Source: a bacterium (GTDB lineage Bacteria; UBP7; UBA6624). Taken from it: a DNA stretch of 64,000 nt. Location: assembly GCA_002716355.1 (NCBI GenBank), contig PBAU01000005.1, positions 20,425 to 84,424 on the forward strand. Direction: 5' to 3'. The translations under genes and the position numbers were made by a program. Of the stretch, positions 9,487 through 23,746 are shown one piece after another (position 1 is the first letter of the stretch; each line of letters opens with the position of its first letter). A model generated the notes under the pieces. It saw only the letters and a list, made by a program, of their open reading frames with translations, did not search any database and had not been told where the DNA came from.

Positions 9487-10593
9487 TTATTGAATCTCCT
9501 GCAACCTTTCCAGTAAAGCAGGAAGTGAGGGTTTATTCCAACTCTGATCTAATATTCCATACCAATCCAAAGCCCCATAAGTTCTTGTTTCACCATTTGC
9601 CATTGTGCCATTTAATGGCCAATAAGCCCAATCAATATCTTTTTCAGATAAATACCTAGTGAAATTCAAAAACCAAGAACCACTTACTGAAGATTCTTTT
9701 ACACAATTGGGATCATTGCTACATGTTCCAAATTCACCAATCCAAACAGGAGCAGTCCATGATTGACCTTCATTTAAAACAAAACCCCAAAGGTAATCAA
9801 AACCTTTTTTCATTTCCTGATAACTTTGAAAGTCAGGATGAAACCAACTGTAATCATGAATCGAATAAACAATCCTGTTTGGAACAGAATAAACAATAGG
9901 CTGATCAAAAACACCCCTAAGATCAGAAGCATAATTTATACCTTCAACAATAATCAATTTACTTGGGTCTATTTTCAGAATGGCCTCTCCTGCACGTATC
10001 GCTGCTCCTCTCCAATCAGTCTCTTTAGACCCCCCCCATGTGGCCCCATTTCTCAATTCATTCCTTAAATCAAAACCAACAACAGCAGGATAATCTTTGT
10101 ATCTTTCAGCTATGATTTCCCATGCTTCTATCCATGCTTTTTCAGGATATTCATCCGTATACCAAAACCCATTCTCCAAACTGTACCAAACAGCCTCACT
10201 TGAATGATTATCAAGAATAACAACCAAGCCCTGATTCCACAAGGATTTAATAACAATATCCATAACCTCAATTGGCCTCAATCCTTTCATTTCAGGATTT
10301 GCAGCAACAACATCATCTGAAACAGCATTTTCCTCAAGGATCATTTCTATTGAAAAAGGAAGTCGGACAGAATTAAACCCAAATAAAGACACTTTTTCTG
10401 AAATTTTATCCACATGTGCTATTTCCAAACCAGCAGGAACATAATCAAGCTCTTCAAAACCATACCAGTTAACACCAGCTAACTTGAATCGTTTATTTTC
10501 TGAATCCATAATCCAACGATCTTCTGTATGAAAAGGGACTTGAGGTTTTTGGATATTATTTAAAAAAAGAAAAAACAAATGAAAAAAGATCAT
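9487..10593 (-). CDS. Secreted glycoside hydrolase family 5 (cellulase-like)
   Basis: 368 aa with a hydrophobic N-terminal secretion signal. The clan GH-A barrel is clear: GVNWYGFEELDYVPAGLE near the start, SVRLPFS, VVILDNHSSEAVW, the acid/base motif DLRNEL (Glu179), IHDYSWFHPDF, and the nucleophile motif WIGEFGT (Glu287), then DWAYWPLNG. This pattern is like GH5 endoglucanases of the E1 type, which cut beta-1,4-glucans outside the cytoplasm; other beta-glycans are possible. The ATG overlaps the stop of the VOC gene (ATGA), so it is co-translated with the aldehyde dehydrogenase operon. Stop codons of this gene and mfd are one base apart. Confidence 0.88.
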   Translation of the reverse strand: MIFFHLFFLFLNNIQKPQVPFHTEDRWIMDSENKRFKLAGVNWYGFEELDYVPAGLEIAHVDKISEKVSLFGFNSVRLPFSIEMILEENAVSDDVVAANPEMKGLRPIEVMDIVIKSLWNQGLVVILDNHSSEAVWYSLENGFWYTDEYPEKAWIEAWEIIAERYKDYPAVVGFDLRNELRNGATWGGSKETDWRGAAIRAGEAILKIDPSKLIIVEGINYASDLRGVFDQPIVYSVPNRIVYSIHDYSWFHPDFQSYQEMKKGFDYLWGFVLNEGQSWTAPVWIGEFGTCSNDPNCVKESSVSGSWFLNFTRYLSEKDIDWAYWPLNGTMANGETRTYGALDWYGILDQSWNKPSLPALLERLQEIQ

Positions 10594-10994
10594 TTTTTCT
10601 CTATATCGTAGGTTACTATTTCCAACCTATGGCCATCAGGGTCATCAAAATAAATCGAATAGCAATTTCCATGATCGACAAACTTGTATTCGATATTTTT
10701 CTGTTTTAACTCTTCACAACTTTTTTCCCAATTCTTAAAATCCGAACCAAAAGCTAAATGTTGGAATGCTAAATCATTTCTTTTTGGATGGCTTCCAGGA
10801 TTTTTACCCACAGGAAAAATTGCTAGCCATTGATCGCCTAAAGTTATCTTTAATGGATTTCCAGGTTTATTTACACCTACAATTTCAAAACCTAAAACAT
10901 CTCTATACCATTCAGCTGATTTTTCTGGATTGGTAACCGTTAAGGCTACATGGTTTATTCCATCAAGCTGCAATTTACTCAGTTCCCATAACAA
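10590..10994 (-). CDS. Glyoxalase/VOC-superfamily metalloenzyme
   Basis: Up to 134 aa, a single VOC domain with two beta-alpha-beta-beta-beta halves. Conserved features are INHVALTVTNPEKSAEWYRDVLGF, with the first metal His, FQHLAFG with the second, and DDPDGHRLEIV with the metal Glu. VOC enzymes include glyoxalases, extradiol dioxygenases and epimerases; the small size and position after an aldehyde dehydrogenase suggest an isomerase or detoxifying lyase, but the substrate cannot be read. The ATG at 10994 overlaps the ALDH gene by 20 nt; a TTG at 10973, one base after the ALDH stop, is an alternative start giving the more usual N-terminus. Confidence 0.75.
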   Translation of the reverse strand: MLWELSKLQLDGINHVALTVTNPEKSAEWYRDVLGFEIVGVNKPGNPLKITLGDQWLAIFPVGKNPGSHPKRNDLAFQHLAFGSDFKNWEKSCEELKQKNIEYKFVDHGNCYSIYFDDPDGHRLEIVTYDIEKK

Positions 10995-12408
10995 CAGACT
11001 TGGTTGCCATGTAATGCTCTAAAGCTTCATAACCATGCTCTGCACCAAGACCGCTTTCTTTCATTCCTCCAAAAGGAAGTTCGTCATAAATCTTTGAAAT
11101 GCTATTAATCCAAGTGTAACCAGATTCAATTTTTTCAGCAGCCTTCATTGCAGAATTAACATCTTTAGTCCAGACAGAAGAGCCCAAACCAAAAGGGCTA
11201 TCATTTGCTTTTGAAATTGCTTCATCCATTCCAGAAACCTTCCATAAAGGTAAAGCTGGGCCAAAAACCTCTTCGGTATTCATCTTGCTATCAAAAGAAC
11301 AATCTTCTAAAACTGTTGGCATTAAATAATTACCCTTGTCATATGAATCACCTGATGGCCTCTTACCGCCTATAAGAATTTTTGCACCTTTGTTAACGGC
11401 ATCACTAAATTGATCTTCAACCTCTGCTCTTTGCCCCTCTGTATGCAATGGCCCCATCCTGTTTGATGTATCAAAACCTGAACCTACTGTAATCTTTTTC
11501 ACCTTTTCAACAATCTTCTCTTTAAACTCTTCATAAACTGGCTCATCTACAAAAACTCTTTTAACAGCAAGACAAGCTTGACCGCAGTTAAAAAACCTTC
11601 CAACTGAACAAGCAGAAACAGCTTTATCGATATTTGCATCAGACATAACAATAAAAGGATCGCTACCACCTAGCTCTAAAGTAACCCTTTTAACTGTTGA
11701 TGCTGCTTTGCTCATAACACCTTTACCGACTGGTGTTGAACCTGTAAAACCTATTTTTGCTATATCTGGATGAGTAGCCAAACGATCACCTACAGTTCCT
11801 CCTGGACCACAAACAATATTCAATACGCCTGCTGGCAATCCAGCTTCAAACATAATTGAAGCTACTCTCAAAACAGTTAGAGGTGTTGTGCTCGCGGGTT
11901 TCAAGACAAAAGTGTTTCCAGCAATCAAACCAGGGCCTAATTTATTTCCAGCCAAAGATAGTGGAAAATTCCAAGGTGTAATCGCTCCACAAACACCCAG
12001 TGGTCTTTTTAATATAAGTCCCATCCTTGCAGGATTATGGTCTAAATTTGGGACAGAACCACCCCTTAAAGATTTCGCCATTCCAGCATAATGCTCTAAA
12101 GTATGTGTGAATCTAAAAACCTCCATTTTTGCTTCCTTTATTGGTTTTCCTTGTTCTGAAGTTAATAATTGAGACAATTCATCCACATTTGACTTTACAG
12201 CATTAGCACAAGAATAAAGAATGTCACCTCTTTTCGCTGCTGAAAAAGACCACCAACATTCAAAAGCGTTTTTTGCTGCCCCAACAGCTTCATCAACAAT
12301 TCTTTCATCACCCAAGGCGACTGTCCCAACAACAGAGCCATCAGCAGGATTAAAAACTTTTGATGAATTTTCTCCCATTAATTCTTTTCCATTTATAAAA
12401 AATCCCAT
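10975..12408 (-). CDS. NAD(P)-dependent aldehyde dehydrogenase
   Basis: About 477 aa, full ALDH length. Motifs: ITPWNFPLSLAGNKLGPGL (cofactor site), FTGSTPVGKGVM, LELGGSDPF with the general-base Glu, NCGQACLAVKRVF with the catalytic Cys, and EVFGPALPLW near the end. It resembles succinate-semialdehyde-type ALDHs and probably oxidises a semialdehyde or CoA-semialdehyde product of the nearby ring-attack genes, taking the role of the ALDH half of PaaZ; that role is inference. I place the start at ATG 12408, one base past the PaaY-like stop; two further ATGs (12417, 12426) would overlap that gene. It is paralogous to the ALDH at 19183-20721. Confidence 0.88.
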   Translation of the reverse strand: MGFFINGKELMGENSSKVFNPADGSVVGTVALGDERIVDEAVGAAKNAFECWWSFSAAKRGDILYSCANAVKSNVDELSQLLTSEQGKPIKEAKMEVFRFTHTLEHYAGMAKSLRGGSVPNLDHNPARMGLILKRPLGVCGAITPWNFPLSLAGNKLGPGLIAGNTFVLKPASTTPLTVLRVASIMFEAGLPAGVLNIVCGPGGTVGDRLATHPDIAKIGFTGSTPVGKGVMSKAASTVKRVTLELGGSDPFIVMSDANIDKAVSACSVGRFFNCGQACLAVKRVFVDEPVYEEFKEKIVEKVKKITVGSGFDTSNRMGPLHTEGQRAEVEDQFSDAVNKGAKILIGGKRPSGDSYDKGNYLMPTVLEDCSFDSKMNTEEVFGPALPLWKVSGMDEAISKANDSPFGLGSSVWTKDVNSAMKAAEKIESGYTWINSISKIYDELPFGGMKESGLGAEHGYEALEHYMATKSVVMGTE

Positions 12409-12409
12409 G

Positions 12410-12937
12410 TTAATCATTTTCCACATCCTTATGTAAATCCATTAATTTTTGATAAAAAACATCTGCAGCAGTCGAAACATGCTCTAAAGCAGGACCGTTC
12501 AATTCTTTTTTAACTTTGGCAGGAACGCCAGCAGCAAGCATTTTTGCTGGTATATCATCACCCTCTCTAACAACACTTCCAGCAGCTATAAGCGATCCAG
12601 CGCCAACACTTGATCCATCCAAGACACATGCATTCATTCCAATCAAAGCTCCATCTTCAATCACACAACCTTCAAGAACAGCCCCATGCCCAACGGTAAC
12701 ACTATCCTTAACTATTGTTGGATTTATATGACTTGTGTGAATCACACTGTTATCCTGAATGCTTGAATTCCTTCCAATTCTTATATCGAAACCTTGATCA
12801 GCTCTCAAAACAGCTCCATACCAAACATTTGCCCTTTCACCAATATAAACTTGACCAGCAATAGTTGCGTTACTCGCAATAAATGCTGATGGATGTATAA
12901 CGGGGGTTTTTCCATTTACTGTCAGTATGGTTGGCAT
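12410..12937 (-). CDS. PaaY/gamma-carbonic-anhydrase-like hexapeptide repeat protein
   Basis: 175 aa left-handed beta-helix protein with repeated hexapeptides (NATIAGQVYIG, SVTVGHGAVLEG, ALIGMNACVLDG, SVGAGSLIAAGSVV). It matches PaaY and YrdA-type gamma-CA homologues through IQDNSVIH, GMNACVLDG and AAGVPAKVKKEL. PaaY is a thioesterase companion of phenylacetate catabolism in other bacteria. The usual metal triad includes His of IQDNxxxH (His67 here), His of VGHG (His84) and His of LHGC; the last is replaced by Glu89 (AVLEGC), so carbonic anhydrase activity is doubtful unless Glu89 or His70 serves. It lies between a crotonase and an ALDH gene, spaced by a few bases. Confidence 0.8.
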   Translation of the reverse strand: MPTILTVNGKTPVIHPSAFIASNATIAGQVYIGERANVWYGAVLRADQGFDIRIGRNSSIQDNSVIHTSHINPTIVKDSVTVGHGAVLEGCVIEDGALIGMNACVLDGSSVGAGSLIAAGSVVREGDDIPAKMLAAGVPAKVKKELNGPALEHVSTAADVFYQKLMDLHKDVEND

Positions 12938-12939
12938 TG

Positions 12940-13722
12940 TTACTCTCCTTTAAAAAAGGGTTTTCTCTTTTCTCTGAAAGCCCTGACTCCCTCTTTATGA
13001 TCTTTTGACAAAAGCATTTTTGTTTGAGATTTATATTCCCTTTCAAGAGCAGAATCTCTATCTGTACATGTCATGCTGTTTAGTAATTTTATAGCTTCTC
13101 CAGTTGCCATTGGAGCTCTTGTAACAAGCGTTTTTGCCCAATTGAGAACAAATTCAAGAAGACTCTTGTTTTCCACAGCATGTGAAACAAAACCCATCCT
13201 TAACAACTCATTTGAGCTTGCCAATCTTTGAGAAAGATAAAAATGTTTAGCTTTAGAAAGGCCTAACAATTTCACAAGCCTATAAGTACCTCCGTGAGAA
13301 GGGATTAAATTTAACTGATGTTCTCTAAAACCAGCTTTTGCTTCAGTAGCTATAACCCTAACATCACATGCCATTGCAAGCTGTAATCCTGCTCCGGTTG
13401 CAACACCGTTCATGGCAGCAAAAACAGGCTTCGGTAAATCTTCTAAAAAATCATAAAAATCACTTACAACTCGACTTTGCTTGGTGAAATTATCAGCATT
13501 CCATTTTTTTTCAAAATGGCTAATATCACCTCCAGCACAAAAAGCTTTTCCTGCGCCTGTGAAGACAACTGCCTTGACGTTTTCTTTTGCTAACAACGGT
13601 GTTAAATTTTTAAAATCCTCTCTCATTCCATCATCAAGAGCATTTAAAAAATCAGGCCTATTCAAGGTGATCAATGCAATGCCATTTTCTAGCAGTTCGT
13701 ACTTAATTGAATTCCAACTCAT
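12940..13722 (-). CDS. Enoyl-CoA hydratase/isomerase (crotonase fold), single catalytic Glu
   Basis: 260 aa crotonase. Oxyanion-hole motifs are KAFCAGGDISHF and GVATGAGLQLAMACDV. By ungapped alignment to rat crotonase motifs, the position of Glu144 (GGCELA) is Gln here (GAGLQLA), while the position of Glu164 (GQPE) is retained in GFREHQLNLIP. One acidic residue is common in isomerases such as PaaG-type Delta3-Delta2 isomerases rather than hydratases, so I infer an isomerase or other CoA-thioester rearrangement. The C-terminus KRKPFFKGE is typical. It sits between the split PaaD zinc ribbon gene and the PaaY-like gene, transcribed with the oxygenase genes. Confidence 0.85.
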   Translation of the reverse strand: MSWNSIKYELLENGIALITLNRPDFLNALDDGMREDFKNLTPLLAKENVKAVVFTGAGKAFCAGGDISHFEKKWNADNFTKQSRVVSDFYDFLEDLPKPVFAAMNGVATGAGLQLAMACDVRVIATEAKAGFREHQLNLIPSHGGTYRLVKLLGLSKAKHFYLSQRLASSNELLRMGFVSHAVENKSLLEFVLNWAKTLVTRAPMATGEAIKLLNSMTCTDRDSALEREYKSQTKMLLSKDHKEGVRAFREKRKPFFKGE

Positions 13723-13907
13723 CTTTCATCTTCTTTCCATTTAATTATTGAAAATGGGGAACTGCACTCAAGGCAATGATACTGTGCCGACATATGGAAA
13801 GGTCCAAAAATGCCTGTTTTTTCTATATTATTAGATCCACAATGAGGGCAACGTTGTTGATTTTTTCTTACGTTTACTTGTTTTTTTCTTTTTTCAAATA
13901 TATTCAA
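13719..13907 (-). CDS. Stand-alone PaaD C-terminal zinc-ribbon-like protein
   Basis: 62 aa with a CPHC...CLEC pair of knuckles. The stretch CPHCGSNNIEKTGIFGPFHM then YHCLECSSPFSIIKW lines up with the C-terminal domain of PaaD (CPRCGS...FGSTACKALYRC...EPFDxFK), with the four ribbon cysteines retained and the extra Cys of the STACK segment replaced by Met. In most bacteria this domain is fused to the MIP18/DUF59 domain of PaaD; here that domain is encoded separately at 14920-15267. It probably helps metal-centre assembly or maturation of the oxygenase. Start ATG 13907 overlaps the paaC-like stop by four nt, and its end overlaps the next crotonase start. Confidence 0.75.
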   Translation of the reverse strand: MNIFEKRKKQVNVRKNQQRCPHCGSNNIEKTGIFGPFHMSAQYHCLECSSPFSIIKWKEDER

Positions 13908-14536
13908 TTTAAAGTTTCCATTAATGATTGAATTTTTGCCTCAAATGCCTTGATCAATTCATTTGAATCCTTATTAATAACCCGCTCTTGCTTGGCTTTT
14001 TTCATTAATTCTTCATCCTCAAAAGAAAGCCATTTTACTGTTTCAGGATATATCTTTTTTACTGATTTTTTCAAATCATCTTTAGCTTCTTCTGAAAGCA
14101 AGCCAAACCAACCAAATGAAAAAATCTCATGGTAATTTTCCTCTTGTAACATCTTAGGGATCCTGGAAGAAAAAAATTCAAAACTGCTTTCCTTCAGAGA
14201 TTCCAAGACAATTGTCATAGCGGTATCGAAAATACAGGAAACAGCAACAAAATCAGTCCAACTATCCCAATCTTCTTTCAAAAATTCGGGAACTTCAAAA
14301 TCTGTTCTATCGGCTACTACAGTCATTTCTTTTGGAGCATTTTCTATTTTTTTAAACAAGGGATACAAAACCCTGGCATGACCAACTTCATCACCTGCCA
14401 TGGAAGCTGCGGCTACGGAAGCTTCAAGTGTTGGGCCGCTACAGCACCAATGCCCATAACGCCTTCCAAGACAATATTTTGCATCAGCCAAGCGTACCAA
14501 AATCTGGAGAATTGAATCTTCTCTTGATTTATTCAT
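13904..14536 (-). CDS. PaaC-like ferritin-fold oxygenase subunit
   Basis: 210 aa, shorter than the roughly 248-aa E. coli PaaC. The N-terminal part LADAKYCLGRRYGHWCCSGP aligns with the PaaC segment that runs LGDNxxxLSQRLxEWCGHAP. Unlike E. coli PaaC (LDLLGQAR), it has DEVGHAR, an ExxH pair (Glu50, His53). The second half has FDTAMTIV (Asp104) and EENYH (Glu133, His136). With Asp18 this gives a possible full di-iron ligand set with the about 30-residue spacing of the family. It is expected to pair with the PaaA-like subunit at 15267-16271. The ATG overlaps the stop of the small PaaB-like gene (ATGA). Confidence 0.78.
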   Translation of the reverse strand: MNKSREDSILQILVRLADAKYCLGRRYGHWCCSGPTLEASVAAASMAGDEVGHARVLYPLFKKIENAPKEMTVVADRTDFEVPEFLKEDWDSWTDFVAVSCIFDTAMTIVLESLKESSFEFFSSRIPKMLQEENYHEIFSFGWFGLLSEEAKDDLKKSVKKIYPETVKWLSFEDEELMKKAKQERVINKDSNELIKAFEAKIQSLMETLN

Positions 14537-14697
14537 ATGACCTTGATTATGGCATCCTCAGGAATCGCAACTAACTCCAGCCACTCCTGACCATACTCCC
14601 CTAAAACAGCATCTTTTGGCGAGCTTGCTTTAATCAAGCCTAGAAAACCCAAAGGATCCTCTCCTTTTTTCCTTCCAAAAATGTGCCAATTAGTCAT
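14533..14697 (-). CDS. Second, very small PaaB-like subunit (54 aa)
   Basis: This short gene fills the space between the longer paaB-like gene and the paaC-like gene. From the ATG at 14697 it reads MTNWHIFGRKKGEDPLGFLG and ends with WLELVAIPEDAIIKVI then TGA. It shares with PaaB the pattern of an initial W/Y-x-V/I-F strand, a run of A-x-x-P-x-D-A, and a terminal strand ending in A-I. Its start overlaps the previous stop by 8 nt and its stop overlaps the paaC-like start (ATGA), so it has perfect operon context. It probably bridges oxygenase subunits as PaaB does. A usual length cut-off of 60 aa would miss it. Confidence 0.75.
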   Translation of the reverse strand: MTNWHIFGRKKGEDPLGFLGLIKASSPKDAVLGEYGQEWLELVAIPEDAIIKVI

Positions 14698-14929
14698 CCT
14701 TAACTAAAACTCCATCGTCTATTATCTGGACAGTATCCTTTCTAGCAACTGCAATCATTTCAACCCAAGTACTTTCTTGATACATTTGATAAGCATAGGC
14801 TTTGGCTAAATAGGGGCTTGGTGCAATAACATCCCCATTCAGCTTAATGAATTCATCTTTTGTAGATTTTGAATAAACGTCATACACATCTCCAGTTCGC
14901 TTAGATAGGTTAGTGTCTCTTATTCCCAT
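14690..14929 (-). CDS. PaaB-like oxygenase subunit
   Basis: About 79 aa from the ATG at 14929 (an upstream ATG at 14944 adds five residues inside the paaD-like gene). The core GDVYDVYSKSTKDEF, APSPYLAKAYAYQMY and WVEMIAVARKDTVQI follows the PaaB pattern of W-x-V-F strand, ADAExAxxxARxxY helix and VSIWVVPxxxI strand. PaaB of phenylacetyl-CoA epoxidase is a small non-catalytic bridge between PaaAC heterodimers. The gene overlaps both neighbours (paaD-like upstream, the 54-aa PaaB-like downstream). Similarity is at pattern level; the position in the operon raises confidence. Confidence 0.75.
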   Translation of the reverse strand: MGIRDTNLSKRTGDVYDVYSKSTKDEFIKLNGDVIAPSPYLAKAYAYQMYQESTWVEMIAVARKDTVQIIDDGVLVKDD

Positions 14930-15267
14930 TTGATAACACCCCAATCATTTAAGACGTTTACACCTGTTTCAGAAAGCATGTTTTGATTCCACGGAGGGTC
15001 CCAAACCACATTTATACATGCATCTTTAACGTCTTTTTCAAGCAAAAGCCTCTCAACAACATCATCAGACATAAAATCCAAAGCAGGACATGACATCGAA
15101 GTGAAAGTCATGTCAACTATTACATTTTGTTTTTTTTCATCAAAATGAACACCATAAATCAAACCCATATCGACAACATCTATGTCAAATTCAGCATCTT
15201 GGACATCATGAAGAATCTGGTAAAGCTCTTCCTCTCTTGCTGTTCTTTCCTTCGGGTCTTGAATCAT
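14920..15267 (-). CDS. PaaD N-terminal (MIP18/DUF59) domain protein
   Basis: 115 aa. A MIP18/DUF59 fold with FDIDVVDMGLIYGVHFDEKK, the reactive-Cys region TFTSMSCPALDFM and VWDPPWNQNMLSETG near the C-terminus; the last matches the WxPxWtxxxLSexar signature of PaaD and SufT-like proteins. It ends at INDWGVIKW-like residues where ordinary PaaD continues into a zinc ribbon. The missing ribbon is encoded three genes further on (13719-13907). PaaD-type proteins are needed for maturation of the PaaABC oxygenase, probably through iron centre assembly. Its ATG overlaps the stop of the paaA-like gene by a single base. Confidence 0.85.
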   Translation of the reverse strand: MIQDPKERTAREEELYQILHDVQDAEFDIDVVDMGLIYGVHFDEKKQNVIVDMTFTSMSCPALDFMSDDVVERLLLEKDVKDACINVVWDPPWNQNMLSETGVNVLNDWGVIKWE

Positions 15268-16271
15268 TATCCTTCCAGCATTTGACAGACTTGCTTGTGA
15301 CCTTTTTGCAAAATGCTAACAAATTCATCATTCATTTCACCCCGGTTTCTCCATCTTTTCATAACGCTATAACCATCTGAGTTTGGTTCGATCCAAGGAA
15401 TCTCACCTTCTTCAAAAAGCCATTTTTTCTCAGCTGCATCAAATTTAGATGGAAACGGGAATTCCAAAACATATTTCTTTTCGTTTTCGCAATAATGTGC
15501 TGGAACTTTCAAACCAAGACTTTCTGCAAGAGGCACAGCAGTGCTCATCCATGTTTGCCTTAATTGGTCATTACTTTGACCCTTGAAGCCATATTCAAGT
15601 TGAATATTTTGAGTTTTAAGATTATCAGGAAGGCCAAACCATTCCACAGTCAAAGGGAACATCCAGTCCAAAGCTCTTTGTAATGACTTTCTGCCATCAA
15701 CATCTTTCGACAGTTTTTTCATCCAGGTTTCACCATGTCTCAAATGAAAGCCCTCTTCTTTTCCAACTTTCACCAATGCTCTTTTCCATGGGCCAAAAGT
15801 TGTGTTGTCGAAAACATCATCCAGTAAAACAAAACCTGCCCTGTCATAAAATGCATTCGCTACAGCTAGTTCTGTCCATGTCAATAATGGAACATCAAAA
15901 GCATATGGGTATCTAAAGCTTTTTGGATCTCTTTCATAGATAAATTCTTCCTTATCAACACCAAGATCTTCCATAAGCCTATAAGCTATATGTGCATGGC
16001 CCAATTCATCCTGAATGATTCCCATGGCAGAAATGAATGCATTTGTGGTTGGAGCATCTTTAGCTGCCAAGTAATAAGCAGGCGCACTCATCAGCTCAGT
16101 ATCTGCAGAAACAGTTAATATTTTTTTGATACCATCTAAATATTTAGGAGACATCATAGAGAGTTCCTCTATGTACTTCCCATCGCTTAACCTATTCTCA
16201 ACGAAAGATTCTTCTTTTAACTTAAACAAATAATTACTCCCCCTTGAAATCAGCTCTTCTTTTTTCGACAA
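15267..16271 (-). CDS. PaaA-like di-iron oxygenase catalytic subunit
   Basis: 334 aa with a ferritin-like fold. Ligands follow the PaaA spacing: Glu59 (DTELMSAP), then 30 residues to Glu89-His92 (QDELGHAHIAYRLM), and in the second half Asp143 (FYDRAGF), then 30 residues to Glu173-His176 (EEGFHLRHGE). E. coli PaaA has the same 30-residue interval and QDExGH motif. PaaA uses a di-iron centre and O2 to epoxidise the ring of phenylacetyl-CoA; here the substrate may differ, since the sequence is divergent. The first 38 nt overlap the end of the upstream crotonase gene. No PaaE-like reductase lies in the window, so electrons must come from elsewhere. Confidence 0.85.
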   Translation of the reverse strand: MSKKEELISRGSNYLFKLKEESFVENRLSDGKYIEELSMMSPKYLDGIKKILTVSADTELMSAPAYYLAAKDAPTTNAFISAMGIIQDELGHAHIAYRLMEDLGVDKEEFIYERDPKSFRYPYAFDVPLLTWTELAVANAFYDRAGFVLLDDVFDNTTFGPWKRALVKVGKEEGFHLRHGETWMKKLSKDVDGRKSLQRALDWMFPLTVEWFGLPDNLKTQNIQLEYGFKGQSNDQLRQTWMSTAVPLAESLGLKVPAHYCENEKKYVLEFPFPSKFDAAEKKWLFEEGEIPWIEPNSDGYSVMKRWRNRGEMNDEFVSILQKGHKQVCQMLEG

Positions 16272-17019
16272 AAGCTGTCAAGCCTTCTTTTGCATCATGG
16301 CTTCCAAAAAGAGGTCTCATGTGTTCTCTTTCATTAGAAAGAGCATCATTTAATGACATATTCAAACCTTGGTAAACACTGCTTTTTATATGTGCAATCG
16401 CCATTGAAGCTTGTGAAGAAACCCTTTTAGCCCACTTCACTGTTTCCTCTTCAAGATTTTCAATTGGGAAAAGTTTGTCAACAATTCCATATTCAAGTGC
16501 AGTCTGAGGATCAACAACTCTACCAGTCACCATCATGTCTAAAGCTTTTTGGCAACCAATTAATCTTGGTAGCCTTACAGTACCGCCATTACCCGGCAAA
16601 AGACCTAATGTCACCTCTGGCAAACCCATTCTGTATTCTCCTTCGGCAGCAAATCTAAAATCACAAGCGAGAGTCATTTCAAGACCACCACCAAAAGCAC
16701 CTCCATTAATCATTGCTACAAAAATCTTGCCAGAATTAGCCATTTTTGATAAAGTTTTATGTGCATAATTAATCATGTCAAGATTAGCCTCAAGGTCATC
16801 TAAGTTTTCAATAAACTTTTTTATGTTCGCGCCAGCACTAAAAAGCTTTGAGCTGCCGCTTTTCATGATTACAACCTTAACATCTTCATCATTAATGTTT
16901 TGGTCAATAACCGTGTTCAATTGTTTCATTGTGTCAATGTCATAAGAATTAACTTTTCCATCATCAAGAATGATGAAACCAACTGAACCGTCCTTATCAA
17001 AATGTACTCTTTTTTCCAT
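16234..17019 (-). CDS. Enoyl-CoA hydratase (crotonase fold), both catalytic Glu present
   Basis: 261 aa. KLFSAGANIKKF and NGGAFGGGLEMTLACDF carry the oxyanion hole and the first catalytic Glu; YRMGLPEVTLGLLPGNGG carries the second. Having both acidic residues, it can be a true hydratase, comparable to PaaF, acting on 2,3-dehydro-acyl-CoA intermediates. The end KRRADFKGE is family-typical. It is the first gene of the lower half of the catabolic operon after the SRPBCC gene; the paaA-like gene starts inside its 3' end. Confidence 0.88.
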   Translation of the reverse strand: MEKRVHFDKDGSVGFIILDDGKVNSYDIDTMKQLNTVIDQNINDEDVKVVIMKSGSSKLFSAGANIKKFIENLDDLEANLDMINYAHKTLSKMANSGKIFVAMINGGAFGGGLEMTLACDFRFAAEGEYRMGLPEVTLGLLPGNGGTVRLPRLIGCQKALDMMVTGRVVDPQTALEYGIVDKLFPIENLEEETVKWAKRVSSQASMAIAHIKSSVYQGLNMSLNDALSNEREHMRPLFGSHDAKEGLTAFVEKRRADFKGE

Positions 17020-17094: not shown

Positions 17095-17556
17095 TTAACC
17101 GAAAAAATTTTGTAATTTTTCAGTTCTGAATTGAAAAATTTTCTCAACATCTTTCTCGACAAACATCTTGTAGATTAAAGAACCACCTGGAACAGCAAAT
17201 TTAATTGAATCAATTACCAATGTACCGCCATCCTTTTCTTCAAAAAGATGCATATGGTCCCAATAAACATAAGGACCTCTTCTCTGACAATCCTCAAAAG
17301 CGGATTTTGGTTCCCATTTTGTTATTTCGCTTTGCCATCTGAATGGTATTCCATGTAGCTTGAGCTTGTAGTCAATCAAAAGTCCTTCTTTCATTTCGAT
17401 TTCACCTTCATTTAAAACTTTGAATTCAAGAAAATCTGGAGTGATTCTTTCAAGATTTCTAGCATTTGAAAAAAAGGAAAAAACCTTATCTATTTTTTCT
17501 GGAACCCAGATTTCATATCTTTTCGATACATGGTGTACAAAAAATGACATGGGCAA
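17095..17556 (-). CDS. SRPBCC-superfamily ligand-binding protein
   Basis: 153 aa. The pattern YEIWVPEKIDKVFSFFSNAR, NLERITPDFLEFKV, IDYKLKLHGIPFRWQSEI and YWDHMHLFEEKDGGTLVIDS is that of the START/SRPBCC helix-grip fold (polyketide cyclase/CoxG-like group). Such proteins bind hydrophobic or aromatic ligands and are often placed in oxygenase or dehydrogenase operons. No catalytic residues can be assigned. It is divergent from the M28 peptidase gene with 28 bp between starts (an internal ATG at 17550 is also possible), and precedes the crotonase and oxygenase genes. Confidence 0.7.
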   Translation of the reverse strand: MPMSFFVHHVSKRYEIWVPEKIDKVFSFFSNARNLERITPDFLEFKVLNEGEIEMKEGLLIDYKLKLHGIPFRWQSEITKWEPKSAFEDCQRRGPYVYWDHMHLFEEKDGGTLVIDSIKFAVPGGSLIYKMFVEKDVEKIFQFRTEKLQNFFG

Positions 17557-17584: not shown

Positions 17585-19186
17585 ATGCCAAAACATTTCC
17601 TATTCGGCCTGAAAGTTCTTTTTCTAATTTTCATCATATCTTTTTTCTCTTATTTTCCACCAAAAGCAAAAAACCTGGGAGCACCATTGGGTGAATTTTC
17701 ATCTGCAAGAGCTTCATTAGTTCTTCTTGATTTGCTCAAAGAGGAGAAGCCACACCCCTCCGGATCAGAAGAAAATGAAAAGATAAGAGATTTGATTATT
17801 GAAAAAATTATTGAAATGGGCCTTGAGCCTGAAGTACAAAGTTTTGAAACCACTATAAAAGGGAAAAAAGAAACCCTTTTCAATGTTATTACAAAGATAA
17901 ATGGCAGCAACCCTGAAAGCCAAAAGATATTACTCTCATCTCATTATGACTCTGTTGTCGAAGCTCCTGGAGCCGCAGACGACATGCATGCTGTAGCTGC
18001 AACATTTGAAATAATGAGAATATTTTTAGAAGGCGGAAAACAGCTCAAACATGATCTTGTGATTATGTTTAACGATGGAGAAGAGATAGGCCTGCTTGGA
18101 GCAAAAGCATTTATGGATGGGCATCCTTGGGCAAAGGAAATTGGGTATGTGATAAATATGGAAGCTAGAGGGACAAGTGGCCCAAGCCTTATGTTTGAAA
18201 CAAGTGAAAACAGCTCGAAATTGATTGAGATTTACGGATCATCGGTAACACATCCAAGATCATCATCAATTTTTTATGAAATTTACAAAAGACTTCCAAA
18301 TGGAACTGATTTTTTAATATACAAAAAATATGGATTAAAAGGATTTAATTTTGCATTCATAGGAAATGCTCAAAATTACCACACAGAGAATGACAATATA
18401 AAAAATCTAAATTTTGATACCCTCCAGCATCAGGGCCAAAATGTATTTCAAGTTCTTGATGCTTTGCAAGAAATGAACCTTTCAGAAATCAAGCATGATT
18501 CAAATAATGTTTATTTTGACCTAATAGGAAAATTTTTCTTTAGCTGGCCAGAAAAAAACAACATTCCTCTTTCTGTAACAACAATGCTTTTGTTGTATTT
18601 TGTCCTCATGCGATTAGGGCAACTCAAAGCTCTAACCTGGAAAAAACTTGGTTGGGGCTCGTTGGCATTTCCTGGTCTTGTATTTGGAACCATTGGAGTT
18701 GGTATAGTCTTTGATGTGTATATTTTTGAAAGTTTTCAGCTTTATGGATGGTGGCCTAAAAATCCGGCACCCTCAATCTTTCTCCTTTTTCTAATTCCTT
18801 GTTTTGTATTTTGGCCAATACTTAAGTTTCTAAGAAAAAGAGCAACATTTTGGGGCCTTTGGGGGACAACATGGAGGTTCTTCTGTGGCCTTTCAATACT
18901 GATGGCCTTTATTCTTCCAGGTGCAATATACCTATTCCTTGTTCCATCATTAATTGCTGTAATTTCAGGATTGATCCTTACAAGCACCAAAACAATAAGC
19001 GGTCCCAAGGCAAAATTGCTTGCATCGATTCCAGCACTTATTGGATTAGGCTTAATATGGATTCCGACAGGTGTATTACTTTACGACGCAATTGGTTTCT
19101 ATATGAGAACTTATGTATCCTTGATTTTTGCAATGACACTTGCAGGGCTTATACCTTTAAGTGCCCCTATAGAAAAAAAGAATTAA
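17585..19186 (+). CDS. Membrane-bound M28-family zinc metallopeptidase
   Basis: 533 aa. One N-terminal transmembrane segment, an extracytoplasmic M28 peptidase domain to about residue 310, then about six or seven transmembrane helices. Zinc ligands are all visible: SSHYDSV (His), AADDMHA (bridging Asp), GEEIGLLGA (catalytic and ligand Glu), NMEARGTSGP (Glu) and NYHTENDNI (His). The layout is like Fxna/ER-type M28 aminopeptidases and the YwaD-like enzymes with a membrane tail. It lies on the opposite strand inside the catabolic cluster, and its last bases overlap the end of the convergent ALDH gene. A role in peptide scavenging is inferred. Confidence 0.85.
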   Translation: MPKHFLFGLKVLFLIFIISFFSYFPPKAKNLGAPLGEFSSARASLVLLDLLKEEKPHPSGSEENEKIRDLIIEKIIEMGLEPEVQSFETTIKGKKETLFNVITKINGSNPESQKILLSSHYDSVVEAPGAADDMHAVAATFEIMRIFLEGGKQLKHDLVIMFNDGEEIGLLGAKAFMDGHPWAKEIGYVINMEARGTSGPSLMFETSENSSKLIEIYGSSVTHPRSSSIFYEIYKRLPNGTDFLIYKKYGLKGFNFAFIGNAQNYHTENDNIKNLNFDTLQHQGQNVFQVLDALQEMNLSEIKHDSNNVYFDLIGKFFFSWPEKNNIPLSVTTMLLLYFVLMRLGQLKALTWKKLGWGSLAFPGLVFGTIGVGIVFDVYIFESFQLYGWWPKNPAPSIFLLFLIPCFVFWPILKFLRKRATFWGLWGTTWRFFCGLSILMAFILPGAIYLFLVPSLIAVISGLILTSTKTISGPKAKLLASIPALIGLGLIWIPTGVLLYDAIGFYMRTYVSLIFAMTLAGLIPLSAPIEKKN

Positions 19187-20721
19187 ATTCCGCCTATTAC
19201 AGCACCTTTATTTTCAAGGTAATAATCAACGGCTTCAGGCCCATGCTCATGACCTATACCACTTGCTTTCACGCCACCAAAAGGAAGTTCGTCAAAGCCA
19301 TAGTGCAACATGTTCACCCATGTAACTCCTGCCTCAATCTCTCTTATTGCCTTATGTGAATCAGCAAGACTTGCTGTCCATATCGAAGAACCAAGCCCCC
19401 ATTCAGTATCGTTTGCCATGTTTATGGCTTCATCCAAGCTTGAAACTTTAAACACAGGTAAAACAGGACCGAAAACTTCTTCGGTAACTAATTTGCAGTC
19501 ATTTGGAACATCTACAACGATAGTGGGTTCAAAATAATAACCATCTTTAAGTTCAGCGTCTTCTGGCCTTTTACCACCACAAATCACCTTTGCACCTTTT
19601 GAGACAGCATCAGCAAGCTGATCTTCTATCTCCTCTCTTTGGAAAGCTGTATGCAAAGGCCCCATTCTCAATTGACCTTTTTCTGGACGACTCTTTGGAT
19701 CACCAGGAACATAACTGACAGTTGCAGCCTTAAGCATTTCCAAAAACTCATCATAAATATCTTCATGAAGAATCAGTCTCTTTACAGCTAAACAAGCTTG
19801 TCCGGCATTCCAGAACCTACCAATTCGACATCCTTGAACTGCAGCCTTAAGATTTGCATCAGGCATCACAATCATCGGATCGCTTCCACCAAGCTCAAGT
19901 GTTATCCTTTTGAATTCAGGGGCCGCTGCCTCCATCACCTTCTTACCAGTATCAGAAGCACCTGTAAAAGCTATCCTTCTGACAACTGGATTCTCTAGAA
20001 GCTCTTGCCCTACAGTGCTTCCAGGCCCAGTAACAACATTCAAAACTCCAGCAGGAAGACCTGCTTCCATGAACAATTCAGCGATTCTCAATGTTGTTAA
20101 TGGTGTTGTTCCCGCAGGCTTGACAACAACAGTGTTTCCAGCAATAAGAGCGGGTCCTAATTTTGTTCCAAGCAAAGTTATTGGGAAATTCCAAGGCACG
20201 ATTGCTGCACATACACCAACAGGTCTCTTTATGACCATTCCATATGCATTCTTACCCATTGCGCTTGGCAAAGGAACCTGAGCTCCTCTTATCTTGCTTG
20301 CAAGACCAGCATAAAAATCCATGCCATGGACAAAATGGTGTATTTCACCATTAGCTTCAAAAGGAGGTTTTCCTTGTTCTTCAGAAAGCATATTTGCAAG
20401 TTCAGCCATGTTTGCCTTAACCAAACCCATCGCTTTGTTGATGATTGCAGCCCTATGTTCAGCATCTGTTTCTTTCCATGTCTTAAAAGCCTCACTTGCA
20501 GCTGAGATTGCTTTGCGAACATCCTTGACTGTTCCTTTGGGCACAGTGCCTGCAACAGAACCATTTGCTGGATTCTTTATCTCTGATCTTTCTCCTGATT
20601 CTGATTCTGTCCAAACCGGTATCAATATTTTTTCAGGGTTTCTTGGCCCAGCTCTTTTTTCCGGATTGAATTTTGGATTGTCTTTCCATTCTCCACCTAT
20701 CAACATTTTGAAATCTGCCAT
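19183..20721 (-). CDS. NAD(P)-dependent aldehyde dehydrogenase (paralogue)
   Basis: 512 aa ALDH. Motifs: IVPWNFPITLLGTKLGPAL, FTGASDTGKKVM, LELGGSDPMIV (general-base Glu), NAGQACLAVKRLI (catalytic Cys), EVFGPVLPVF. Shared phrases with the ALDH at 10975-12408 (NPA-GSV-GTV near the N-terminus, GQACLAVKR, GPLHT, GGKRP) show the two are paralogues. This copy has about 25 extra residues near the N-terminus (PEKRAGPRNPEKILIPVW). It is the last gene of the upper catabolic operon, converging on the M28 peptidase gene with a 4-nt overlap. Confidence 0.88.
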   Translation of the reverse strand: MADFKMLIGGEWKDNPKFNPEKRAGPRNPEKILIPVWTESESGERSEIKNPANGSVAGTVPKGTVKDVRKAISAASEAFKTWKETDAEHRAAIINKAMGLVKANMAELANMLSEEQGKPPFEANGEIHHFVHGMDFYAGLASKIRGAQVPLPSAMGKNAYGMVIKRPVGVCAAIVPWNFPITLLGTKLGPALIAGNTVVVKPAGTTPLTTLRIAELFMEAGLPAGVLNVVTGPGSTVGQELLENPVVRRIAFTGASDTGKKVMEAAAPEFKRITLELGGSDPMIVMPDANLKAAVQGCRIGRFWNAGQACLAVKRLILHEDIYDEFLEMLKAATVSYVPGDPKSRPEKGQLRMGPLHTAFQREEIEDQLADAVSKGAKVICGGKRPEDAELKDGYYFEPTIVVDVPNDCKLVTEEVFGPVLPVFKVSSLDEAINMANDTEWGLGSSIWTASLADSHKAIREIEAGVTWVNMLHYGFDELPFGGVKASGIGHEHGPEAVDYYLENKGAVIGGI

Positions 20722-20744: not shown

Positions 20745-21083
20745 TTACTCTAATCCTAACAAATCATCACACTTTGCTGCAAAAACAAAGTCACTTTCTG
20801 TCAGTCCATCAATCTTGTGTGTCCAGATTTTGACTTTAACCCTCCCCCAAGAAAGTTCCAAATCTGGATGATGGTCCTGCTGTTCTGACATCTGAGCAAC
20901 CTTATTCAAATAACCCCATGCTTCTTGAAAGTTCGGAAAATTGAATTCCCTTTCAAGATGATGCTCTTTAACAAGATTCCAATCTTCACTTATCTCTTTC
21001 ATAAAGGATAAAAGGTCTTTTCCTTTCAGTGGGGGAACACCACCTTTACATGGAACACAGTCTCTTTCAGAAAAAGAATTCAT
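20745..21083 (-). CDS. Pterin-4a-carbinolamine dehydratase (PCD/PhhB family)
   Basis: About 112 aa from the ATG at 21083, which overlaps the previous stop (ATGA). The PCD signature is intact: EQQDHHPDLELSWGRVKV followed by KIWTHKIDGLTESD, with the active-site His pair and distal His. PCD regenerates pterin cofactor after aromatic amino acid hydroxylation, but some homologues serve other roles. The extra N-terminal CVPCKGGVPPL is common in bacterial members. No phenylalanine hydroxylase is present in the window, so its place within an aromatic-type catabolic operon is unexplained. Confidence 0.88.
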   Translation of the reverse strand: MNSFSERDCVPCKGGVPPLKGKDLLSFMKEISEDWNLVKEHHLEREFNFPNFQEAWGYLNKVAQMSEQQDHHPDLELSWGRVKVKIWTHKIDGLTESDFVFAAKCDDLLGLE

Positions 21084-21295
21084 TTGACAATCGGTTTCCA
21101 TTTGGCTGCGTCAAGACATGATGCTATATGAACTATCCAGCCAAAAATACCAACAGTAAAAATATAAATAATTACAGCAAGAAAAATATGGCAAAAAGCA
21201 ACCCAGCCTCGACCTTGAATCAACTGCCCTAATCCTGGTATGAAAAAACTCGCCAAAGCAGCGATGGTGTTACCTGCTGAACCCTGTCCGCTCAT
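21080..21295 (-). CDS. Small membrane protein, TM2-like
   Basis: 71 aa with ASFFIPGLGQLIQGRGWVAF and a long hydrophobic stretch of two helices (about residues 10-55), ending in a charged tail (DAAKWKP). The FxPGxGQxxxGR phrase is typical of TM2/DUF5683-like small membrane proteins. Function unknown. It starts one base after the stop of the hydroxyacyl-CoA dehydrogenase gene and overlaps the PCD gene start, so it is embedded in the operon. Confidence 0.6.
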   Translation of the reverse strand: MSGQGSAGNTIAALASFFIPGLGQLIQGRGWVAFCHIFLAVIIYIFTVGIFGWIVHIASCLDAAKWKPIVK

Positions 21296-22141
21296 CTAGT
21301 AATCGTAAACCCCTTTACCTGTCTTTCTTCCCAGTCTTCCTTTTTCCACAAGCTCCTCAAGCTTCTTGCTTGGCTTGAAAGCAGGGCCAAGATGTTCCTC
21401 AAGGTTTTTCATGCTTGCCAGCCTAACATCTAAACCGACAAGATCAATCATTTCAAATGGTCCCATTGGATGATTAAGACCTAACTTCAAAGCTTTGTCG
21501 ATATCCTCAGGTGAAGCAACTCCTTCTTCCCACATTCGAAATGCCTCAGCCCCTATAAGAGCATTCATTCTTGATGTGACAAATCCTGCAGCTTCATTGA
21601 TTTTAACCGTCTGTTTTCCCATTTTTTCTGAAACCGCTTTAACAATCTCATAGGTTTCCTGTGAGGTTGATTTAGACTTGACAATTTCAATCAATTTCAT
21701 AATATGCACTGGATTGAAGAAATGCATCCCTATCACCTTGTCTTCCCTTTTTGTCGCATTACCCATTTCAGTGATTGACAACCCCGTCGTGTTTGTCGCA
21801 AAGATCGTTTCTTTATGAACAAATTTCTCAGCATCACTGAATATCTTTTTCTTCAATTCCATATTTTCTGGGACAGCTTCAATAATGAGATCTGAATCTT
21901 TTACAGCCATTTCAAAATCTTCTGTAAAAACCAGTTTTTCTTTTGCGTTATCTCTTTTTTCTGCAGCAATCTTTCCAAGTTCAAACCCTTTATCAAGATT
22001 CTTGTTGATCTTCAATTCCGCAAGATCAAGCTGCTTTTTGCTTATGTCAAAAAGTGATGTTTCGAAACCAGCCATTGCAGAAACCTGCGCAATACCATTT
22101 CCCATTGTCCCTGAACCTATAACAGTAATTTTATTAATCAT
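21296..22141 (-). CDS. 3-hydroxyacyl-CoA (3-hydroxybutyryl-CoA-type) dehydrogenase
   Basis: 281 aa, single-domain type. NAD-binding motif VIGSGTMGNGIAQVSAMAG at the N-terminus, EAVPENMELKKKIF, the catalytic His region MHFFNPVHIMKLIEIV, and the C-terminal NHPMGPFEMIDLVGLD with GRKTGKGVYDY at the end. It oxidises 3-hydroxyacyl-CoA to 3-ketoacyl-CoA, the role of PaaH in phenylacetate breakdown or Hbd in butanoate metabolism. The ATG at 22141 sits inside the end of the amidohydrolase gene. No thiolase gene is seen nearby to take its product. Confidence 0.92.
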   Translation of the reverse strand: MINKITVIGSGTMGNGIAQVSAMAGFETSLFDISKKQLDLAELKINKNLDKGFELGKIAAEKRDNAKEKLVFTEDFEMAVKDSDLIIEAVPENMELKKKIFSDAEKFVHKETIFATNTTGLSITEMGNATKREDKVIGMHFFNPVHIMKLIEIVKSKSTSQETYEIVKAVSEKMGKQTVKINEAAGFVTSRMNALIGAEAFRMWEEGVASPEDIDKALKLGLNHPMGPFEMIDLVGLDVRLASMKNLEEHLGPAFKPSKKLEELVEKGRLGRKTGKGVYDY

Positions 22142-22985
22142 CAAAAACTCCTTGTGCAGACTTGTATGAAAGGTTATCCTTATCTTCTTGCGAGATGGGC
22201 AAACTTAAGATAGCGTCAAGATTCTTCCTTATTCCGGGAACGCCAGGACTTGGCCAATCTGTTCCGAATATAACCTTATTACCAAGTTCAAATAATCTTG
22301 GATACCATTCCAGTATCCTCTTTGGAGGAATTGAGGAAAGATCCCAATAGACATTCTTATGCCTTCTGAAAACAAACCAAGCTTCATTGATCCATAATGG
22401 CCTTCCTCCATGGGCCATAATGATTTTCAAATCAGGAAAATCAATTGCAATATCATCAATCTCCATTGGATTGCCCCATTTGCTTCTTGCTCCAGGAAAG
22501 GTACTGGTGCCAGTGTGGATCAAAACAGGTTTTGAGTATTCTTGACACATCTCATAAACAGTGGCCAATTCAGGCATAGACCCATCAGCATATGCATTTG
22601 CAGGCATATCTTGATGTGGAGGATGGATCTTCAAGGCATCAAGCTGACAATCCTCAAAGATAACCCTCATCTCATCCTTGACATTTTTGCAAGCAGGTGG
22701 ATGCACTCCACCAAATGCAATGATTCTGTCAGGTGCTCCTGCCCTGTACTCTGCAGCCCATTGGTTAACGCCAGAAGTAAAACCCATGATATCTGGAGCT
22801 ACATAATTGATAACACCGACTTTTGAAATCCTTTCCTTGTCCAAATGTTCAGCAAGGGCTTTTGGTGAGTCCAAACACCTTTTCACAATTTCAGAATCAG
22901 GCCTTCCGCTTTCAATAAATGCAAGTGCCCCTGGAGACATCATTTCTCTAGGTTGCATATGTATATGGATATCTATAGCGTTCAT
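22134..22985 (-). CDS. Amidohydrolase-2 family metal-dependent hydrolase/decarboxylase
   Basis: 283 aa TIM-barrel enzyme. Metal motif HIH (residues 7-9) at the N-terminus, ALKIHPPHQDM, VLIHTGTSTF, IMAHGGRPLW and FGTDWPSPG with the terminal Asp. The amidohydrolase-2 group contains ACMSD and the gamma-resorcylate-type decarboxylases as well as lactonases; position in a ring-degradation cluster suggests decarboxylation or hydrolysis of a ring-derived acid, which is inference. It follows the crotonase gene (overlap 4 nt) and precedes the hydroxyacyl-CoA dehydrogenase. Confidence 0.82.
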   Translation of the reverse strand: MNAIDIHIHMQPREMMSPGALAFIESGRPDSEIVKRCLDSPKALAEHLDKERISKVGVINYVAPDIMGFTSGVNQWAAEYRAGAPDRIIAFGGVHPPACKNVKDEMRVIFEDCQLDALKIHPPHQDMPANAYADGSMPELATVYEMCQEYSKPVLIHTGTSTFPGARSKWGNPMEIDDIAIDFPDLKIIMAHGGRPLWINEAWFVFRRHKNVYWDLSSIPPKRILEWYPRLFELGNKVIFGTDWPSPGVPGIRKNLDAILSLPISQEDKDNLSYKSAQGVFDD

Positions 22986-23746
22986 TTTTTATTCTTTTTT
23001 TCCAAAAATTTTGTCATTCTTTGCTTCTTGTCTTTAGATTCAAAAAGTATCGCTTGATATTCACTTTCAATTTTTCCATGATCATGCGAAGGCGATGCAG
23101 CTTTGTTTAAAGCTTTTTTGCCAAGTCGAATTGCCTCTGGTGCCATTTTTGATATCTTAACCATCATCTCTCTTGCTTTCCCGATAACCTTATCATCTTC
23201 AACAACGCAATTCAGCAAACCTATTCTGTATGCCTCCTCTGCATCAATAATCTTTCCTGTAAAAAACATCTCCCTTGCTATACCTGTGCCAACAATCCTT
23301 GGCAACCTGTAAGTTCCACCGGCAGCAGCAATTATCCCTAATCTTGCCTCTGGTTGCCCCATTTGGGTTGTCTTGCCTCCCACTCTTATGTCGCAAGCAA
23401 GAGTCAACTCGCAACCTCCACCAAGTGCATACCCTTTGATTGCCGCAATTACAGGCCATGGAAAATCTTCAACTTTCTGAAAAAGCTTTTGATTGATTCC
23501 CTTCAACGCATCATCTCTTCCCCTTTTTAACAAAGCTTCAATATCAGCGCCAGCAACAAAAGCTTTATCTCCAGCGCCTGAAATGATCAATCCCATGATT
23601 CCAGAATCACCCTTCAGTTCATCCAATGCCGCATGTAAATCAGCTACAACATCATCATTTATTGCATTTAGCACATTGGGCCTATTGATGATTATTTCTG
23701 CCCATTTTTCCTTTTTTTCAACTAACAAGGTCTTGTATTTGCTCAT
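22982..23746 (-). CDS. Enoyl-CoA hydratase (crotonase fold)
   Basis: 254 aa, first gene of the upper catabolic operon. Motifs: DKAFVAGADIEALL and GYALGGGCELTLACDI with the first catalytic Glu, TTQMGQPEARLGIIAAAGG with the second. Both acidic residues are as in classical crotonase, so hydratase activity on enoyl-CoA esters is expected. It is divergent from nnr, with only 24 bp between the annotated starts, so the promoters of both operons must overlap or lie within the coding ends. Confidence 0.9.
   Translation of the reverse strand: MSKYKTLLVEKKEKWAEIIINRPNVLNAINDDVVADLHAALDELKGDSGIMGLIISGAGDKAFVAGADIEALLKRGRDDALKGINQKLFQKVEDFPWPVIAAIKGYALGGGCELTLACDIRVGGKTTQMGQPEARLGIIAAAGGTYRLPRIVGTGIAREMFFTGKIIDAEEAYRIGLLNCVVEDDKVIGKAREMMVKISKMAPEAIRLGKKALNKAASPSHDHGKIESEYQAILFESKDKKQRMTKFLEKKNKK

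Follow-up and report, generated by a model that had tools for sequence, protein, structure and literature searches.

Gene content and conservation of the locus

We analysed a 64,000-nucleotide window of a UBP7 genome (contig PBAU01000005.1, assembly GCA_002716355.1), whose minus strand carries, from position 17019 to 12940, eight genes in the order ECH_up-A-D-B-B2-C-ZnR-ECH_dn: two crotonase genes enclosing the subunits of an oxygenase related to the phenylacetyl-CoA epoxidase (Paa) system (Table 1). Homology, gene order, clade structure, active-site residues and the association of related operons with a benzoate-CoA ligase suggest that this operon encodes a complete Paa-type epoxidase of a separate sister lineage, acting on benzoyl-CoA or a similar aryl-CoA and having an ancestrally unfused PaaD, a reading that we consider fairly probable. 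The order of the oxygenase genes, including a final ribbon of 62 amino acids (aa), had been given in a preliminary description made from the sequence alone; every open reading frame (ORF) was found in its place, with overlaps, and the same order recurs in other phyla. Start/stop overlaps run through all the genes from ECH_up to ECH_dn, as where the TTG start of ZnR overlaps the stop codon of C (TTGA), and this pattern is typical of a single transcript.

The source is a metagenome-assembled genome (MAG) of 1.26 Mb, related to UBP7 UBA7824 and 86.6% complete; genome-wide statements come from searches of this assembly, which returned no PaaA or PaaC besides the operon's A and C and no fused PaaD, which would have spoken against the preliminary description. 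When compared with the UBP7 relative L005, all ORFs show nonsynonymous divergence (dN) of 0.02-0.07 and synonymous divergence (dS) of 0.40-1.71, so that dN/dS is far below 1 even for the ORFs of 54 and 62 aa (about 0.11 for ZnR). All the small ORFs of the operon are under purifying selection, and the operon as a whole is real, conserved and functional-looking. A frameshift artefact as the source of the separate ORFs was ruled out, since relatives share the gene boundaries and dN/dS is low.

Table 1. Genes of the oxygenase operon and of the surrounding catabolic cluster, with positions in the window and the matches or relatives on which each assignment rests.
Gene or product	Position	Strand	Evidence and remarks
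Crotonase ECH_up	16234..17019	-	PF00378, 2.4e-51; directly upstream of A; kept in most relatives
A, PaaA-like diiron oxygenase subunit, 334 aa, TTG start	15267..16271	-	PF05138, 3.2e-52
D, DUF59 protein, N-terminal half of PaaD, 115 aa	14920..15267	-	PF01883, 4.5e-11; NF041868, 3.5e-24
B, PaaB-like bridging subunit, 84 aa	14690..14944	-	hhalign to canonical PaaB
B2, second, diverged PaaB-like protein, 54 aa	14533..14697	-	hhalign to B
C, PaaC-like subunit, 210 aa	13904..14536	-	PF05138, 3.1e-30
ZnR, free-standing PaaD-type zinc ribbon, 62 aa, TTG start	13719..13907	-	PF23451, 42.3 bits
Crotonase ECH_dn	12940..13722	-	PF00378, 1.1e-49; orthologue adjoins the zinc ribbon in relatives
Gamma carbonic anhydrase/PaaY-like hexapeptide protein	12410..12937	-	NF050158, 7.6e-48; PaaY TIGR02287, 1.2e-34; both below cut-off
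Aldehyde dehydrogenase (ALDH) 1	10975..12426	-	55% identity to Thermus ALDHb, which adjoins the benzoate-CoA ligase there
ALDH 2	19183..20721	-	54-70% identity to the ALDH adjoining ECH_up in relatives
3-hydroxyacyl-CoA dehydrogenase	21296..22144	-	NF006722, 3.5e-112
Amidohydrolase 2 family protein	22134..22985	-	PF04909, 2.8e-30; 42% identity in L112; relative in HR24 follows the benzoate-CoA ligase
Enoyl-CoA hydratase ECH3	22982..23746	-	NF004475, 5.9e-79

Phylogeny and active-site residues of the A and C subunits

We built one tree from 74 sequences of A and C, in which each subunit serves as the root of the other. The A subunits of the window and its relatives (A_split) form one clade (support 99/97) that is sister to the clade of all canonical PaaA (100/97), and the window's A does not fall inside the latter; the distinct lineage proposed in the preliminary description is thereby upheld. 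Identity between A of the lineage and canonical PaaA is about 29%, and the scores of the window's proteins stay under the NCBIfam equivalog cut-offs for PaaA (117 against 280 bits), PaaC (78 against 133) and PaaD (40 and 32 against 108). AlphaFold gives a confident model of C (pLDDT 91), with PaaC 3pvr_C as its top match (TM score 0.85), and a moderate one of A (pLDDT 77), which matches PaaA (4iit_A/3pw8_C). The UBP7 C protein lacks some 45 C-terminal residues present in most relatives and sits on a long branch in the tree.

In Escherichia coli PaaA, the diiron site is formed by E42, E72, H75, D126, E155 and H158, and a lysine bridge of K68 with E49 has been proposed to aid electron transfer (PMC4498308). 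The window's A has all six ligands, together with I68 and Y49 in place of the lysine bridge. Across the lineage, the six ligands are retained in 57 of 58 A sequences, the sole exception being at E155, and 55 have F108, the residue that places the phenyl group in PaaA. The lysine bridge is found in none of the 58 (most have I68 and Y49), versus all 10 canonical A sequences sampled. The C subunit of the lineage has its own signature, namely a lysine at the position of ligand E42 (52 of 53 sequences, the remaining one having arginine) with the other five ligand positions nearly invariant, and the window's C follows this pattern in full. Proteobacterial C subunits have lost several ligand positions, and some canonical C subunits of haloarchaea and Chloroflexota keep all six. 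Owing to the substitution at E42, we rejected a second complete diiron site in C for this lineage; the lysine may instead fill or alter the C site.

The bridging protein B aligns to canonical PaaB by profile comparison (hhalign, 95.4%, E 1.8e-8) and B2 is a paralogue of B (97.8%, E 1.3e-12), while the direct hhalign comparison of B2 with canonical PaaB was not significant. B2 therefore appears to be a diverged copy of B that is tied to PaaB transitively. Many Chloroflexota, as well as the haloarchaea, have a single B.

Distribution of the lineage

Across the GTDB species scanned, the gene order of the window's operon recurs, as far as the contigs reach, in MAGs of Gemmatimonadetes, Anaerolineales, KSB1, Acidobacteria, Chloroflexi and HR24, and the extended order ALDH-ECH-A-D-B-B2-C-ZnR-ECH is kept across several phyla. 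Additionally, the lineage occurs on plasmid records of Thermus thermophilus (A 58% identical), several haloarchaea (about 50%) and Agrobacterium (37%), and 70 of 400 sampled Chloroflexota genomes have an A of the lineage (E<=1e-40). Three member genomes carry a canonical fused PaaD besides, and therefore the system of the lineage is not simply their phenylacetate epoxidase; the presence of both types of A in one genome is rare (2 cases in the Chloroflexota sample). One Chloroflexota genome (L088, G160) has two systems of the split lineage, and a canonical operon with fused PaaD lies no more than about 8 kb from one of the two. A lone PF05138 protein on an Alteromonas plasmid (L081, 5929-8284), with a radical SAM protein and then a MaoC dehydratase encoded after it, is a separate system. 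A literature search, with most subscription journals outside its reach, found no description of this lineage, and none is apparent in a survey of the pathway published in 2026 (PMC13186573).

Neighbouring genes

Profile searches did not resolve the ALDH and crotonase subfamilies of the cluster to Paa or Box equivalogs. A pterin-4a-carbinolamine dehydratase gene (20745-21101) lies within the catabolic cluster and adjoins ALDH 2. The cluster is flanked by genes of an SRPBCC-family protein (17095-17556) and a glyoxalase-family (VOC) protein (10590-10994), both of which are kept in UBP7.

Substrate of the lineage

The preliminary description had considered that the substrate might differ from phenylacetyl-CoA, and linkage to benzoate-CoA ligases now provides good evidence for this proposal. 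On a plasmid of T. thermophilus HB5018, the cluster includes counterparts of both ALDHs of the window (55% and 55% identity) and of both crotonases (49% and 41%), along with an ABC transporter, a thiolase and a gene of the benzoate-CoA ligase family (TIGR02262, 590.9 bits versus a cut-off of 375.25). In HR24, the transporter, an ALDH and the first part of the ligase gene lie divergent to A at a contig end, and on another contig part of a ligase precedes an amidohydrolase related to that of the window. The ligase adjoins the operon in an Acidobacteria MAG, and in two Chloroflexota it belongs to a single operon with the order A-D-B-C-ZnR-ECH-benzoate-CoA ligase-ALDH (ligase scores of 648 and 621 bits), which in L139 ends in a thiolase closest to 3-oxoadipyl-CoA thiolase. 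Overall, the linkage was seen in Thermus, HR24, L012, L139 and L140.

The association extends to gene content, given that among the 400 Chloroflexota genomes the ligase (E<=1e-100) was found in 63 of the 70 A-positive and 31 of the 330 A-negative genomes (Fisher p 1.7e-41, a value that ignores common descent and is not a true probability), in contrast to canonical PaaA, which showed no association with the ligase (8/46, p=0.36). Besides, no BoxB (TIGR03225) exceeded the cut-off in 11 member genomes including that of the window, the sole match, at 18.5 bits, being the A gene itself, and structure 3pvr is, by its title, a crystal of PaaA in complex with benzoyl-CoA. Taken together, these observations make benzoyl-CoA or a substituted benzoyl-CoA, rather than phenylacetyl-CoA, the most likely substrate of the lineage.

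Several points weigh against this assignment. The co-occurrence test takes no account of shared ancestry, and seven A-positive Chloroflexota have no ligase at the cut-off used. The window's genome, at 86.6% completeness, yielded no benzoate-CoA ligase match at E<=1e-60 and no PaaK over the cut-off (one weak PaaK match lies within a fatty-acyl ligase), so that a substrate of the benzoyl-CoA type is proposed for it by analogy. Moreover, the ligase family also spans anthranilate and hydroxybenzoate enzymes, so more than one aryl group is conceivable, and the ligase of L139 is equally close to the anthranilate-CoA ligase 4wv3 and the benzoate-CoA ligase 2v7b. The haloarchaeal and Agrobacterium members, with other neighbours, may use other substrates. 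Finally, no gene for a PaaE-type reductase lies near the operon; a Fer2 search of the incomplete window genome gave three separate matches, none in the cluster, and one stand-alone Fer2 protein is encoded outside it. A ferredoxin gene adjoins the haloarchaeal members. In the haloarchaeal L097 (7784-8570 and 13580-16494), a 2Fe-2S ferredoxin, a GNAT protein and two UbiD-family decarboxylases stand alongside, which hints at a different feeder pathway.

An alternative is that the enzymes of the lineage act on some other aryl- or acyl-CoA, such as anthraniloyl-CoA, hydroxybenzoyl-CoA, furoyl-CoA or one with a non-aromatic ring, and that the substrate varies by subclade. The inclusion of anthranilate and 3-hydroxybenzoate ligases in the linked ligase family, the CoA-transferase and UbiD decarboxylases beside haloarchaeal members, the different neighbourhood of the Agrobacterium members and the replacement of F108 in a few sequences would all be compatible with it; however, the solved structures nearest to the linked ligase include benzoate-CoA ligases, and the thiolase-like gene of L139 fits benzoyl-CoA as well as the other candidates, so we regard this alternative as unlikely. 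Quite unlikely, in our judgement, is a diverged phenylacetyl-CoA epoxidase that does the ordinary Paa job with an odd gene order and an unfused PaaD. In its favour, the subunit set is shared, F108 is mostly retained, and PaaY-like, hydratase and hydroxyacyl-CoA dehydrogenase genes are close by, but the loss of the lysine bridge throughout the lineage, the PaaA, PaaC and PaaD scores below the equivalog cut-offs, the lack of a PaaK match in the window's genome, the additional canonical Paa of several member genomes and the identity of the ligase linked in Thermus and Chloroflexota (benzoate-CoA ligase, not PaaK) all argue against it.

Unfused PaaD

The two small proteins D and ZnR had been described as the N-terminal and C-terminal halves of PaaD, and both indeed match PaaD families best: ZnR passes the cut-off of the PaaD zinc ribbon family PF23451 (27 bits), and D has as its best match among all NCBIfam models the haloarchaeal PaaD NF041868 (paad_haloarch), at a score below the cut-off of that model. 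The accompanying premise that PaaD is always one protein does not hold, since haloarchaea have separate genes for a DUF59 PaaD and a zinc-ribbon "PaaE". NCBIfam already has separate haloarchaeal families for them (NF041868 and NF041869), and on Haloferax and Haloarcula plasmids paaA, paaB (or a PacF protein), paaC, paaD (DUF59) and "paaE" (a zinc ribbon of about 55 aa) are annotated as individual genes. Because of these haloarchaeal genes, with their own NCBIfam models, an unfused PaaD as such is not new; what differs from the haloarchaea is the order A-D-B-B2-C-ZnR, in which D and ZnR are kept apart by B, B2 and C. Fusion of ZnR to C in relatives was ruled out, the two being separate ORFs wherever found, and the D protein of Thermus is not identical to the solved DUF59 protein TTHB138 (2cu6).

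The bacterial canonical systems examined carry a fused PaaD, and in the tree of A and C their members make up one subclade of canonical A, beside the unfused haloarchaeal canonical members. Since fused PaaD is limited to this one bacterial clade and its haloarchaeal sister, like the whole A_split clade, is unfused, an ancestral unfused PaaD is the more economical reconstruction. By parsimony, and with modest sampling, the common ancestor most likely had separate DUF59 and zinc-ribbon proteins, and a single fusion followed in the bacterial branch of the canonical systems. Of the two origins offered in the preliminary description, ancestral or secondarily split, the former is thus favoured, and its headline of a remodelled operon with a split PaaD is not retained. 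The reverse history, with PaaD fused in the common ancestor and later split, perhaps twice, would agree with the fused PaaD of the bacterial canonical systems examined and with domain fission being possible, but it is improbable given that fused genes occur within one clade only, that the canonical sister group and all of A_split are unfused, and that D and the ribbon are non-adjacent in the A_split lineage although a simple fission would leave them as neighbours.

Proposed pathway and implications

For the reaction, and for the parts played in it by D, the zinc ribbon and C, we infer the following scheme. An aryl carboxylate would be activated to its CoA ester, and the core of A and C with B and B2, in which A would hold the diiron site, C would be its structural partner and B and B2 would be bridging proteins, would insert one oxygen atom from O2 into the aryl-CoA ring. 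In E. coli, PaaD is required in vivo and not in vitro (PMC9493321, PMC4498308); here D and the free zinc ribbon would jointly replace it and may assist metal loading or maturation. The flanking crotonases could then isomerise and open the epoxidised ring, an ALDH would oxidise the resulting semialdehyde, and a hydratase, a dehydrogenase and a thiolase of the beta-oxidation type would finish the degradation.

The wider claim, that the lineage constitutes a second kind of benzoyl-CoA epoxidase, Paa-type, widespread (Chloroflexota, KSB1, Acidobacteria, Thermus and haloarchaea), without a lysine bridge in A, with a lysine-substituted diiron-like site in C and with an ancestrally unfused PaaD, appears to us evenly balanced. 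If true, BoxAB would not be the only enzyme type for aerobic ring opening of benzoyl-CoA: another would be common in phyla in which no Box genes are found, and the benzoate-CoA ligases of those genomes would gain a downstream enzyme. PaaA and PaaC have recently been proposed as genomic markers of phenylacetate degradation (PMC13186573), and in this lineage such markers would flag a different pathway. Furthermore, with an A that naturally lacks the lysine bridge and a C that has a lysine in its site, the lineage would offer a direct test of electron uptake in the family and of the role of PaaC, and the unfused D and zinc ribbon would let each half of PaaD, a poorly understood protein, be studied apart.

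Comparison with known systems

The window's operon shares with the canonical PaaABCDE systems of E. coli, Klebsiella and Pseudomonas the PaaA/PaaC superfamily pair, a PaaB-like bridge, both halves of PaaD, the diiron ligands, and crotonases and ALDH nearby. It differs from them in its sister-clade position, the order A-D-B-B2-C-ZnR, the unfused PaaD, the second PaaB, an A without the lysine bridge, the lysine in the C site, a cluster with no PaaE reductase and a genome in which PaaK was not found. The haloarchaeal canonical Paa (with PaaD NF041868 and "PaaE" NF041869) likewise has separate DUF59 and zinc-ribbon genes; unlike the window, however, it has the order A-B-C-D-ZnR, its A and C fall in the canonical clade and its A keeps K68 and E49. 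The Box pathway (BoxAB, BoxC, BoxD and benzoate-CoA ligase) would follow the same logic of ligase, aryl-CoA epoxidase, crotonase and aldehyde dehydrogenase, whereas the lineage has an oxygenase of the PaaA/C type, no BoxB above chance in member genomes, and separate crotonases, with no BoxC-type double protein identified. Finally, the second paa-like cluster on a T. thermophilus plasmid (paaA_2/paaC_2 in TF24) differs from that of UBP7, in whose genome no ligase was found, by its linked benzoate-CoA ligase, thiolase and ABC transporter, and is itself a member of the lineage, with the same genes and an A that is 58% identical.

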